A DNA stretch of 64,000 nucleotides from a virus. The notes under the pieces are model-generated. The model saw only the letters and a program-made list of their open reading frames with translations. It did no database searches and was not told the DNA's origin. The stretch is taken from IMG/VR virus record IMGVR_UViG_3300022074_000020, positions 1-64,000 of that record; one strand, 5' to 3'. The position numbers and the translations under genes are program-made. Shown here in pieces: positions 59,996 to 64,000 of the stretch (its first letter is position 1; every line of letters begins with the position of its first letter).

Positions 59996-60003
59996 TATAA
60001 ATA
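59996..60003 (+). promoter_or_regulatory. Exact T4 late promoter (TATAAATA)
   Basis: An exact TATAAATA lies between gp17 and gp18, 46 nt before the gp18 ATG. With T4 spacing, RNA would start near 60009, inside the 5' arm of the leader stem at 60005-60039. Confidence 0.85.
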
Positions 60004-60004
60004 A

Positions 60005-60039
60005 TCCTAGACAACAAGTGCAGGGCACTAAATCTAGGA
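60005..60039 (+). promoter_or_regulatory. gp18 leader stem-loop covering the ribosome site
   Basis: Outer stem TCCTAGA (60005-60011) with TCTAGGA (60033-60039), 7 bp; inner stem AGTGC (60017-60021) with GCACT (60025-60029), 5 bp and a 3-nt loop. The Shine-Dalgarno sequence TAGGAG (60035-60040), 9 nt before the ATG at 60050, is mostly inside the 3' arm. Confidence 0.65.
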
Positions 60040-60049
60040 GTTTTAAACA

Positions 60050-62305
60050 ATGGCAGCTAATCAATCCTCACCTGGAGTCGTAGTCCAGGAAAGAGATCTG
60101 ACAACTATTACAACATTATCCACCGCGAACGTTGGTGTGATTGCAGCACCTTTTGAATTAGGTCCTGTTGAATCAGTGTTGGAAATCGGTTCTGAAAGAG
60201 AACTTGTAGCACAGTTTGGTGAACCAAACGACTACAACTATGAGTACTGGTATACTGCAGCGCAGTTCCTATCATACGGTGGAGTACTAAAAACCATCCG
60301 TGCTGACAGCGATACTTTAAAGAATGCTGTTGATACAGGCACTGCACCAAAGATTAAGAATTTACAAGACTACGAGACTACATACGAGACTGCAAGTAAT
60401 AACTGGAATTGGGCAGCAAGAACTCCTGGTACTAAAGGAAACTCAATCGGTATCTTCATGACAGACTCTGGTGCTGACCAGATCGCTGTTGTTCCTGCTC
60501 CTGGATCAGGTAACGATCACGAGTTCGTTTCTGGTGAAGCACTTAGCGTTTCTGCTACTGGTGCAGCAGGTAAAGTTTTCAAATATAGCATTGTCCTTAC
60601 AGTTGGATCTGTAGTAGGATCATTCGTTCCTGGAACTACAACTTCAATCAGTATTTCTGGTTCTGCACAAACAGTTAATGTACTTGCATATGATGCAGGT
60701 AACAGAAAGATTGAAATCGGTCTTCCTTCTGGTGGTGTTACTGGTATCATTGCTGATGGTCAGACTATTACTCAGGGTTCTAACACTGCAGTAATCGAAA
60801 CTTCTGGTATCGAAAGACGTGTTTATGTCGCAAAAGACAAAGGTTCAGTTGACTTTGCTGCTGCTGACAGTATCGCTGATACTAACTCTACTGCTGTTGC
60901 AGTTAGTTTAGTAAGAGTTGAGTATGATGAGCGTGAGTATCTTCCAGGTCAGAAATGGGTTGAAGTTGCTCCTAGACCTTCAACTTCTTCTTTCACTAGT
61001 GCAAACGGTGGATTTAGAGACGAACTTCACATCCTCGTAACTGACGTTGATGGTAAGATCACTGGTAACGCAGGTACTGTTCTTGAGAGATACATCGGTG
61101 TTTCTAAAGCATCTGATGGTAAGTCTTCTCTTGGAGAGACCAATTACTACGTTGAAGTTATCAAGCAGAAATCTGCTTATGTCTTCTGGGGTGAGCACGA
61201 AACTACACTGTTTGCTGCTACTGCTTCTGCTTCTGCAGGTAACTGGGGACAAAGTGCTGCTTCTAGACAGTTCAACTTACTTCGCTCAACTGCAGGTACT
61301 GTAGATTATCCTGCAGGTGCAGTTACTCTTGGATCTGACGAGAACGCTACTTTCTACTACAGACTTGGTAGTGGTGCTGACTATGCACTTTCTGGTGGTG
61401 AGTATACTATTACTTCAGCAGGTCTTGCTACTGCATATGGATTGGTAGATGACCCAGAATCACAAGTCATCGACTTCATCTTAGCAGGTCCTTCTGGCGC
61501 AACTGATTCTGCTGCTATCTCTAAGGTTGCTGCTCTAGTCAGTATTGTTGAAGAAAGAAGAGACTGTATGCTATTCGTTTCTCCTCGTAGAGGAAACGTG
61601 ATTGGCGTCAGTAGCGCAGCAACTCAAACTGTTAATATCATTAACTTCTTTGATCAACTACCTAGTTCTTCTTACATGGTATTTGACTCTGGTTATAAGT
61701 ACATTTACGATAAGTACAACGACGTATACAGATACGTTCCTTGTAACGGTGACGTTGCAGGTCTTTGCTTACAAACAACTGAAGTTGCAGAACCATGGTT
61801 CTCACCTGCAGGTTTCGCTCGTGGTCAAGTTAGAAATGCTATCAAACTTGCATTCACTCCTAACAAGACTCAGCGTGACAGACTTTACTCTGCAAGAGTT
61901 AACCCAATCGTTTCCTTCCCAGGTCAGGGTATCGTTCTTTACGGTGACAAGACCGCACAGGCATTTGCTTCTGCATTCGATAGAATCAATGTTAGACGTC
62001 TCTTCCTCACTATTGAGAGAGTTATCTCTGGTGCTGCTAAGTCACAACTCTTTGAACAGAACGATGAGCAACAAAGAGGACTCTTCCTCAACATTGTTGA
62101 ACCATACTTGAGAGATGTTCAAGGTCGTCGTGGTGTAACTGACTTCTTAGTTAAGTGTGACAGCGAGAACAACCCACCTGAGTCTGTTGACAGAGGTGAG
62201 TTCAACGCTGAAATCTTTGTGAAACCAACAAGGACTATCAACTACATTACTCTGACTTTCGTTGCTACTAGAACTGGAGTTTCTTTCCAAGAAGTCGCAA
62301 GTTAA
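60050..62305 (+). CDS. gp18: Tail sheath protein gp18
   Basis: A 751-residue gp18-type sheath protein: SSPGVVVQERDLTTITTLST at the N-terminus, AAPFELGPVESVLEIGSERE near 33, YEYWYTAAQFLSYGGVLKTI near 65 and a conserved C-terminal half (AISKVAALVSIVEERRDC, NVRRLFLTIERVISGAAKS, NIVEPYLRDVQGRRGVTDF). Sheath subunits polymerise around the tail tube and contract on infection. It is longer than T4 gp18 (659) because of beta-rich inserts near residues 160-300. It has its own exact late promoter, fitting a protein needed in many copies. Confidence 0.95.
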   Translation: MAANQSSPGVVVQERDLTTITTLSTANVGVIAAPFELGPVESVLEIGSERELVAQFGEPNDYNYEYWYTAAQFLSYGGVLKTIRADSDTLKNAVDTGTAPKIKNLQDYETTYETASNNWNWAARTPGTKGNSIGIFMTDSGADQIAVVPAPGSGNDHEFVSGEALSVSATGAAGKVFKYSIVLTVGSVVGSFVPGTTTSISISGSAQTVNVLAYDAGNRKIEIGLPSGGVTGIIADGQTITQGSNTAVIETSGIERRVYVAKDKGSVDFAAADSIADTNSTAVAVSLVRVEYDEREYLPGQKWVEVAPRPSTSSFTSANGGFRDELHILVTDVDGKITGNAGTVLERYIGVSKASDGKSSLGETNYYVEVIKQKSAYVFWGEHETTLFAATASASAGNWGQSAASRQFNLLRSTAGTVDYPAGAVTLGSDENATFYYRLGSGADYALSGGEYTITSAGLATAYGLVDDPESQVIDFILAGPSGATDSAAISKVAALVSIVEERRDCMLFVSPRRGNVIGVSSAATQTVNIINFFDQLPSSSYMVFDSGYKYIYDKYNDVYRYVPCNGDVAGLCLQTTEVAEPWFSPAGFARGQVRNAIKLAFTPNKTQRDRLYSARVNPIVSFPGQGIVLYGDKTAQAFASAFDRINVRRLFLTIERVISGAAKSQLFEQNDEQQRGLFLNIVEPYLRDVQGRRGVTDFLVKCDSENNPPESVDRGEFNAEIFVKPTRTINYITLTFVATRTGVSFQEVAS

Positions 62306-62326
62306 AATTAAATAAAAACCTCTGAA

Positions 62327-62363
62327 AAAACGCTTTGTTCTAAATAATAGGACAAAGCGTTTT
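62327..62363 (+). terminator. Terminator hairpin with a late promoter in its loop
   Basis: A 14-bp stem joins 62327-62340 (AAAACGCTTTGTTC) to 62350-62363 (GGACAAAGCGTTTT), with one T-G wobble. The loop 62341-62349 is TAAATAATA. The A-rich 5' side and T-rich 3' side give terminator character in both directions, although the + strand T run is only four bases. Confidence 0.8.
62339..62346 (+). promoter_or_regulatory. Late promoter (TCTAAATA) inside a terminator loop
   Basis: TCTAAATA matches TATAAATA at 7 of 8 positions and lies across the last stem bases and loop of the hairpin. RNA would start near 62352, after the 5' arm, so gp19 transcripts would not contain the hairpin. Confidence 0.65.
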
Positions 62364-62376
62364 ATATTAACCTACC

Positions 62377-62982
62377 ATGGCAGGAATTCAATCATTTAAA
62401 TCTAGAGTCAGCGGTGATTTTTCTAGACCTAACCTGTTCAAATGCGTCATTGACTTCCCATCGGTAGTCGCAGGCGGACAAGAAGCAGCAAAACTCGGTG
62501 AGTTTACCGTGAGAGCAGCGAACTTACCCGCAACACAGTTGGGTATTGTCGAAGTCCCTTACAGAGGTCGCGTACTCAAGATTGCAGGTGACCGTACATT
62601 TGAACCTTGGACCATCACTATCATGAACGATAAAGACTTCGTTCTTCGTAACGCATTTGAAAGTTGGGCACAGGGTGTTCAAGAGTATACTCAAAACGTT
62701 ACTACTGCAGGATCAGACGTTGGATCCTATTTCAAGGACATGAGAGTTATTCAGTATGATAGGTTTGGCGATCTAAAAGATTCAGCAGATGCAGAGGCAG
62801 ATCCTAAGGTTCTTGCAGAGTATCGTTTCTATGATACTTTCCCAACTAACGTTGCTGCAATCGATCTTGATTACGGAAGCAATGACGCTATCTCCGAGTT
62901 TACCGTAGAACTTCAAGTCCAGTACTGGAAACCAGTTTACAAGGGCGAGAAGACTGAAGGCGGAAAACAAACTAAAAAATAA
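62377..62982 (+). CDS. gp19: Tail tube protein gp19
   Basis: A 201-residue gp19-type tube protein: FKSRVSGDFSRPNLFKCVID at the N-terminus, ANLPATQLGIVEVPYRGRVL near 50, FEPWTITIMNDKDFVLRNAF near 75 and YGSNDAISEFTVELQVQYWK near the end. It assembles hexameric rings to form the DNA channel inside the sheath. The size fits the family (T4 gp19 is 163), with a small C-terminal Lys-rich extension (GEKTEGGKQTKK). It is preceded by the terminator/promoter hairpin, which separates its expression from gp18. Confidence 0.95.
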   Translation: MAGIQSFKSRVSGDFSRPNLFKCVIDFPSVVAGGQEAAKLGEFTVRAANLPATQLGIVEVPYRGRVLKIAGDRTFEPWTITIMNDKDFVLRNAFESWAQGVQEYTQNVTTAGSDVGSYFKDMRVIQYDRFGDLKDSADAEADPKVLAEYRFYDTFPTNVAAIDLDYGSNDAISEFTVELQVQYWKPVYKGEKTEGGKQTKK

Positions 62983-62993
62983 GGTTTTAGAAA

Positions 62994-63014
62994 GTTCCTA
63001 AATAAGACAGGAAC
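62994..63014 (+). promoter_or_regulatory. Late promoter (CCTAAATA) within a small hairpin
   Basis: CCTAAATA (62997-63004) overlaps a 5-bp hairpin: GTTCC (62994-62998) with GGAAC (63010-63014). RNA would start near 63010, at the 3' arm. There is no T run, so it is not a terminator. Downstream, ATACTATAGTAT (63019-63030) is a perfect palindrome just before the gp20 ATG. Confidence 0.6.
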
Positions 63015-63033
63015 AACAATACTATAGTATAAA

Positions 63034-64000
63034 ATGTCTCAACTCTTCGGATTTTCACTCCAGAGAGCAAAGAAGGTTCCTAAGGGACCTTCTTTTGTTC
63101 AGAAGGATAGTATGGATGGTACGCAACCGATTGTCGGTGGCGGTCACTATGGATACTCTGTTGATTTTGATGGGACTATTCGTAATGAATATGAACTGAT
63201 CTCTCGTTATAGAGAGATGGTTCTCCAACCAGAATGTGACAGCGCAGTAGATGATGTCGTTAACGAAACCATCTGCGGTAACTTTGATGATGTACCAGTT
63301 GAGGTTGAACTAAGCAACCTTAAGCAATCAGAAAAGATTAAGAAGTTAATAAGAGAGGAGTTCGATGAGATTCTCCGTCTTCTAGACTTTGATAATAGAT
63401 CTTATGAGATCTTCCGTCGTTGGTATGTTGACGGTAGATTATTCTTTCATAAGATCATCGACCCTAAGAATCCTCGTAGCGGACTTACAGAACTGAGGTA
63501 TATCGATCCTCGTAAGATTCGTAAAGTGACTGAGTTTGAATCGAAAGATCCAAACGCAATGCGTAGTGCAGATCTTAACACTCAACTCACGCAAACGTCC
63601 CATACTTACTATCTCTATAATCCTAAAGGATTAAGGAATACTACTAATCAGGGCATGAAGATTGCACCTGATTCTATCACTTATTGTCATTCTGGTATTC
63701 AGGATCTCAATAAGAACATGGTGCTATCGCACCTACATAAAGCGATCAAGGCAGTTAATCAACTCCGTATGATCGAAGACTCTTTGGTTATCTACCGTTT
63801 GAGTAGAGCACCAGAACGTCGTATTTTCTATATTGATGTTGGTAACTTACCTAAGAACAAAGCGGAGCAATACCTTCGTGAAGTTATGGGAAGGTACCGT
63901 AACAAGTTAGTGTACGATGCAAATACAGGAGAAATTAAAGATGACAAGAAGTTCATGTCAATGCTCGAAGACTTCTGGTTACCCAGACGAGAAGGCGGAC
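63034..64000 (+). CDS. gp20: Portal protein gp20 (N-terminal part, cut by window end)
   Basis: An open frame from ATG 63034 to the window edge, 322 codons. The sequence has gp20 landmarks: SQLFGFSLQRAKKVPKGPSF, ISRYREMVLQPECDSAVDDV, the IFRRWYVDGRLFFHKIID segment near residue 130, LRYIDPRKIRKV near 155 and IEDSLVIYRLSRAPERRIFY near 248. gp20 forms the dodecameric portal that initiates head assembly and through which gp17 pumps DNA. About 240 residues are expected beyond the edge, judging by the usual family length of about 560. Confidence 0.96.
   Translation, partial: MSQLFGFSLQRAKKVPKGPSFVQKDSMDGTQPIVGGGHYGYSVDFDGTIRNEYELISRYREMVLQPECDSAVDDVVNETICGNFDDVPVEVELSNLKQSEKIKKLIREEFDEILRLLDFDNRSYEIFRRWYVDGRLFFHKIIDPKNPRSGLTELRYIDPRKIRKVTEFESKDPNAMRSADLNTQLTQTSHTYYLYNPKGLRNTTNQGMKIAPDSITYCHSGIQDLNKNMVLSHLHKAIKAVNQLRMIEDSLVIYRLSRAPERRIFYIDVGNLPKNKAEQYLREVMGRYRNKLVYDANTGEIKDDKKFMSMLEDFWLPRREGG

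Follow-up and report, generated by a model that had tools for sequence, protein, structure and literature searches.

A late promoter in the loop of a terminator-like hairpin between gp18 and gp19 of a T4-like cyanophage lineage

The gap between the tail sheath gene gp18 and the tail tube gene gp19 in a lineage of T4-like cyanophages contains a real, conserved and lineage-specific composite element, a variant of known promoter-plus-stem-loop devices. Judging from its sequence and from comparison with relatives, the element is probably a compact gene boundary, in which an intrinsic terminator for gp18 late RNA would hold in its loop the gp55-type late promoter of gp19.

The gp18-gp19 gap

The DNA analysed here is a 64-kb window (the whole stretch studied, 64,000 nucleotides) of a 77.9-kb viral contig and represents late-region DNA of a T4-like cyanophage, where the annotated genes near the site are on the + strand. 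Across gp18-gp20 it shares 99.9% identity with Synechococcus phage metaG-MbCM1 (Kyanoviridae, Galenevirus) and 88.7% with Cyanophage P-RSM1. The contig is partial; in the genome of its 99.9% identical relative metaG-MbCM1 the late sigma factor gp55 is annotated at 118892. A gap of 71 bp separates gp18 from gp19 in the window, and the features in and around it are the following.

59996-60003, + strand: late promoter of gp18, TATAAATA, 54 nt 5' of the gp18 ATG, conserved in relatives
60050-62305, + strand: gp18, tail sheath protein (ORF; 99.9% identical DNA annotated as tail sheath in metaG-MbCM1)
62324-62330, + strand: upstream box GAAAAAA, 16 bp before CTAAATA, in partial overlap with the 5' arm
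62327-62342, + strand: hairpin 5' arm (RNAfold), 16 of 16 pairs kept in every aligned nested-clade sequence
62339-62346, + strand: late promoter of gp19, TCTAAATA (motif match), with CTA in the stem and AATA in the loop
62343-62347, + strand: hairpin loop AATAA (RNAfold)
62348-62363, + strand: hairpin 3' arm (RNAfold); in the core, 62331-62342 pair with 62348-62359
62352, + strand: predicted late transcription start (T4/Aeh1 spacing); the RNA would exclude the 5' arm
62360-62367, + strand: U-rich tail TTTTATAT, 6 T of 8, predicted termination zone
62377-62982, + strand: gp19, tail tube protein (ORF; tblastn matches to annotated gp19)
62997-63004, + strand: late promoter of gp20, CCTAAATA, within a weak 6-bp hairpin (62992-63012)

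The segment 62327-62363 (AAAACGCTTTGTTCTAAATAATAGGACAAAGCGTTTT) is a near-perfect inverted repeat. The preliminary description had proposed a 14-bp stem with the loop TAAATAATA, which is right; RNAfold extends it by two pairs to 16, including the A/U ends, with a 12-bp G+C-anchored core and a 5-nt loop, AATAA. The minimum free energy of 62310-62390 is −22.2 kcal/mol (z = −5.9), and none of 200 shuffles was equally stable. At −19.2 kcal/mol this is also the most stable simple hairpin of the window, where two simple hairpins reach −15 or better against 0.35 expected from shuffles. The core stem (−14.8 kcal/mol) has a CGC/GCG base and runs directly into a U-rich tract, as in an intrinsic terminator. 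A simple terminator scan missed it because the A-run in the 5' arm can pair with four T of the tail TTTTATATTAACC, and the stem found by the scan absorbs them. A scan for σ70 promoters gave no σ70-like site at 62327-62363, with a total about that expected by chance, and an Rfam search of the whole window matched no family.

The box TCTAAATA upstream of gp19 matches CTAAATA, is conserved across relatives and runs from the stem into the loop, as had been claimed. In T4 the late promoter TATAAATA spans −13 to −6 (PMC1524935, PMC2988020), and CTAAATA starting at −12 is the proposed late-promoter consensus of phage Aeh1 (PMC1524935). The box-to-start spacing of Aeh1 and T4 (−13/−12 to −6) therefore predicts a late start for gp19 at 62352, the very position near which the preliminary description had placed it.

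Conservation of the hairpin and the likelihood of chance nesting

In P-RSM1 the hairpin is identical to that of the window at 37 of 37 bases, although the comparable fourfold-degenerate sites differ in 18% of cases in gp18 and 40% in gp19. A sister lineage (L171-L176) has a gp19 of about 60% identity, and 64% of its fourfold sites differ; there the core and loop are unchanged save for one U-A to U-G change, and in the outer stem next to the core an A-U pair has become U-A through a change in each arm. None of the 16 pairs is lost in any of the six rows of the nested-hairpin alignment. The covariation score of this alignment was reached by 31 of 500 shuffles and rests on one two-sided change, and we regard the covariation as real but thin. 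A pattern scan found the hairpin in 30 contigs, which represent only eight context variants.

For a test against chance we took 622 late-promoter-like sites that precede ORF starts in T4 and 13 cyanophages (14 T4-like genomes), scored the stability of the hairpin holding the box in its loop, and compared it with 62,200 flank shuffles. Loop-nested hairpins at −12 kcal/mol or better occur at nine sites against 0.22 expected, making strong nesting about 40 times commoner than chance, with the reservation that the nine include kin pairs (metaG-MbCM1 and P-RSM1 share one site, S-PM2 and Syn1 another) and T4 gene e, and are not all independent. At −8 or better there are 14 against 2.4 expected, and no shuffle reached −19, the value of the gp18-gp19 site. 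The idea that nesting is a general trait of late promoters was rejected, since most of the 622 sites lie outside hairpins (14 nested at −8 or better).

The gap in related phages and the origin of the nested form

Our survey of the gp18-gp19 gap covered 23 named T4-like phage records, the window among them, as well as Syn9 and 156 IMG/VR loci (91 distinct gaps). Most cyanophage gaps carry the late promoter [CA]TAAATA. In 63 of the 91 distinct IMG/VR gaps a strong hairpin stands apart from the promoter motif, about 20–30 nt ahead of it and in most cases with a T-run (for example GAGACCCTACGGGGTCTC then TTTTTTT), and many unrelated stem sequences fill this position across relatives. The same pairing of separate terminator and promoter is seen in Syn33, S-SSM5, S-RIM50, S-BM1, S-RIM2, S-RIM8, S-RIM12, MbCM100, ACG-2014b and Syn9. 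The simple hairpin finder overlooks terminators with large or interrupted loops, and three gaps scored as holding the motif only (L217, L280 and L285) are likely to contain a separate terminator after all. In the P-SSM4 group this gap holds the promoter and no strong hairpin, so termination at the junction is dispensable.

The nested form at gp18-gp19 is limited to the window's group, which has no second terminator there. In a tree of the gp18 C-terminal region and gp19 the seven nested rows form one clade (SH-aLRT 99), and its sister rows and surroundings are separate-terminator phages. Core stabilities in the nested clade are −14.5 to −14.8 kcal/mol, while relatives' separate terminators have a median of −11.1, and the stem starts 25 nt after the gp18 stop codon, against a median of 19 nt. 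Most relatives have T7 runs, which are stronger than the tail TTTTATAT: every nested-clade member has 6 T of 8, where relatives usually have 7, and this count is kept although the tail sequence varies. Since relatives keep both signals side by side, the window's lineage seems to have merged them. The simplest history would be that the separate terminator was lost and a new hairpin formed from the flanks of the old promoter. Just upstream of the hairpin, CCTCTGAAAA looks like the 3' arm found in the terminators of some relatives (for example ACCTCTGAAATTTTTC at locus L216), and we infer that it may be a leftover of the old separate terminator. Looking for the same nesting in other gp18-gp19 gaps, as the preliminary description had proposed, we found promoter and terminator side by side outside the window's clade, or the terminator absent, and nesting of this kind at other gene junctions.

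A further box, (C)TGAAAATA, lies exactly 16 bp 5' of the gp19 late promoter and is conserved across very different gaps; it reads GAAAATA in most relatives against GAAAAAA in the window, at equal spacing in most gp18-gp19 gaps. To our knowledge, T4 late promoters are without an upstream element. The idea that GAAAATA at −28 is a second element shared by cyanophage late promoters in general was rejected, there being no signal at the positions of other genes across the genomes.

A probable gene boundary and its alternatives

In the proposed mechanism, late polymerase coming from the gp18 promoter (TATAAATA, 59996) would transcribe both arms, the hairpin would form, and most polymerase molecules would stop and be released in a Rho-independent manner at or near the U-rich tail, at about 62360–62367. 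Polymerase starting at the nested promoter (about 62352) would make an RNA without the 5' arm, so that nothing would fold and the polymerase would run on into gp19. The sheath and tube genes would thus gain independent RNA levels within a 71-bp gap, and in this lineage the composite element has replaced an ancestral separate terminator followed by the same promoter about 20–30 nt later. Sequence and comparison establish the nesting, the preserved pairing, the conserved promoter and this replacement; termination, its efficiency, the start site and any benefit of compactness we infer. In Escherichia coli the terminator tR2 became fully efficient once its distance from the stop codon exceeded 27 nt (PMC4824070); with a hairpin that begins 25 nt after the gp18 stop, some ribosome interference is therefore possible. 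The preliminary description had presented the element as a switch. Its logic holds insofar as the presence of both arms in read-through RNA and the lack of the 5' arm in promoter-started RNA follow from the sequence, and the combination of terminator and promoter gains support from the conserved promoter, the usual terminator at this junction and the nested hairpin that takes its place in one clade. The word switch is too strong, because nothing indicates toggling between two outcomes; from its parts one would expect a terminator and, after it, a start independent of it.

A different role for such a hairpin is known from T4, where the late promoters of genes e, soc, 49 and I-TevI are encoded in the 5' strand of a hairpin whose 3' arm hides the ribosome site (PMC3014915), so that only read-through RNA can fold. 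The gp19 promoter likewise lies in the 5' strand and loop of its hairpin, and our nested-hairpin scan recovered gene e and a second T4 site, taken to be gene 49. Translational masking of the gp19 ribosome site in read-through RNA would match this topology, and it fits other nested cyanophage sites (S-CAM1 126730 and ACG-2014d 153078). At gp19, however, 13 nt separate the end of the 3' arm from the ATG and a U-rich tail follows the arm, whereas the T4 arm hides the site, and the gp19 arm has no Shine-Dalgarno sequence at a usable distance. The energy computed for opening the start region (−15 to +12) is 5.7 kcal/mol in read-through RNA and 3.2 kcal/mol in promoter-started RNA, compared with 16.3 and 1.6 at T4 gene e; the hairpin thus adds about 2.5 kcal/mol at gp19 and about 15 at gene e, and at gp19 neither the Shine-Dalgarno sequence nor the AUG is sequestered in a helix. 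Because of this distance and this small change in opening energy masking is a poor fit, and there is no obvious need for a block to early translation, since gp18 and gp19 are both late virion genes. We consider it quite unlikely here, and the terminator features fit the hairpin better.

It is also unlikely that the hairpin terminates weakly and serves chiefly in processing or 3'-end stabilisation, the RNA being cut or trimmed back to it so that gp18 mRNA is protected, with limited effect on polymerase. Its long stable stem and modest U-tail would suit that role and the conservation data are compatible with it, but relatives' hairpins at this position carry strong T-runs typical of intrinsic terminators, and the nested clade holds its 6 T of 8 despite changes in the tail sequence. 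Only the promoter might be functional, with the inverted repeat incidental or serving DNA extrusion or protein binding; the promoter is indeed older than the hairpin and found without it in relatives, and GGAC-like sequences recur in initiation regions and can pair with upstream bases. The failure of all 62,200 shuffles to reach −19, together with a hairpin left unchanged beside diverged neighbours and one compensatory change, makes this reading very improbable.

Nested promoters at other junctions

The nested architecture recurs most clearly upstream of gp13, where S-PM2 (NC_006820, about 66791–66823, L084) and Syn1 (NC_015288, about 104714–104746, L146) carry CCCTRYCTG-ATAAATA-CAGGTAGGG and a T-run, with GATAAATA in the loop of a terminator-like hairpin. 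We find this element in 33 IMG/VR stretches (L359–L391) representing 19 context variants, nearly always with a T5–T6 run, and AAG/CTT against AAA/TTT is a two-sided change from A-U to G-C. Like the gp18-gp19 element it holds a late promoter in a terminator-like loop, but its stem sequence is unrelated, its T-run stronger and its junction another, and it is probably of independent origin. At gp19-gp20, Syn9 (NC_008296, about 113904–113931), S-RIM4 (MK493321, about 106646–106670) and some contigs nest the gp20 promoter in 7–10 bp hairpins without a U-tail, and in most other genomes the pairing is weak or absent. In the window the first codons of gp20 contain a 12-bp hairpin of −15 kcal/mol (63069–63095).

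Two further nested late promoters lie closer to their start codons. In S-CAM1 (NC_020837, about 126730, − strand) 8 nt separate the end of the 3' arm from the ATG, and the opening energy is 25.1 kcal/mol in read-through RNA and 7.7 in promoter-started RNA. In ACG-2014d (KJ019120, about 153078), upstream of an annotated NAD synthetase, the arm ends 4 nt before the ATG and the corresponding values are 16.7 and 5.5. In the window the gp18 leader (59996–60049), TATAAATAATCYTAGAC...CTAGGAG, is strongly conserved, and bases just 5' of the predicted gp18 start could pair with the gp18 Shine-Dalgarno sequence solely in read-through RNA, a possible gene e-like mask.

Relation to known elements and implications

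Compared with the tandem terminator and late promoter of most T4-like cyanophages, the nested element shares the junction, the promoter and the presumed job, but it is one overlapping element where they have two neighbouring, separate ones. Promoter-early stem-loops (PeSLs) are said, by Arbiol 2010 and Comeau 2014, to be early promoters that mediate shuffling in variable regions. Like them, the gp18-gp19 element packs a phage promoter together with a stem-loop terminator into a short intergenic segment, but its promoter is of the late (gp55) type and lies inside the loop, whereas PeSL promoters are early and σ70-type, and it stands once per genome between core virion genes, not in variable regions. 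PeSL elements of T4-type phages are cited in passages of PMC4503421 and PMC5931544. A mobile or repeated PeSL-like cassette was rejected, as the pattern search hit only once in the window contig and once per matching genome, at a core junction that is conserved. No earlier description of the element was found in the literature searched, a search made without the PeSL papers and the Syn9 transcriptome.

For annotation the element carries a warning, in that terminator finders whose stem absorbs the T-run overlook one half of such elements and promoter finders blind to structure overlook the other. It also offers an evolutionary before-and-after, from tandem to nested, within one gene gap, and a concrete model, open to test, of the way in which T4-like cyanophages adjust the amount of each structural protein separately from that of its neighbour. 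Whether these phages have recurring composite late elements, with a gp55 promoter in the loop of an intrinsic terminator, arising several times independently and sometimes by collapse of a tandem pair, we judge to be evenly balanced. If so, about 40 bp would suffice to end each late cistron and begin the next at gp18-gp19, upstream of gp13 and possibly at gp19-gp20.
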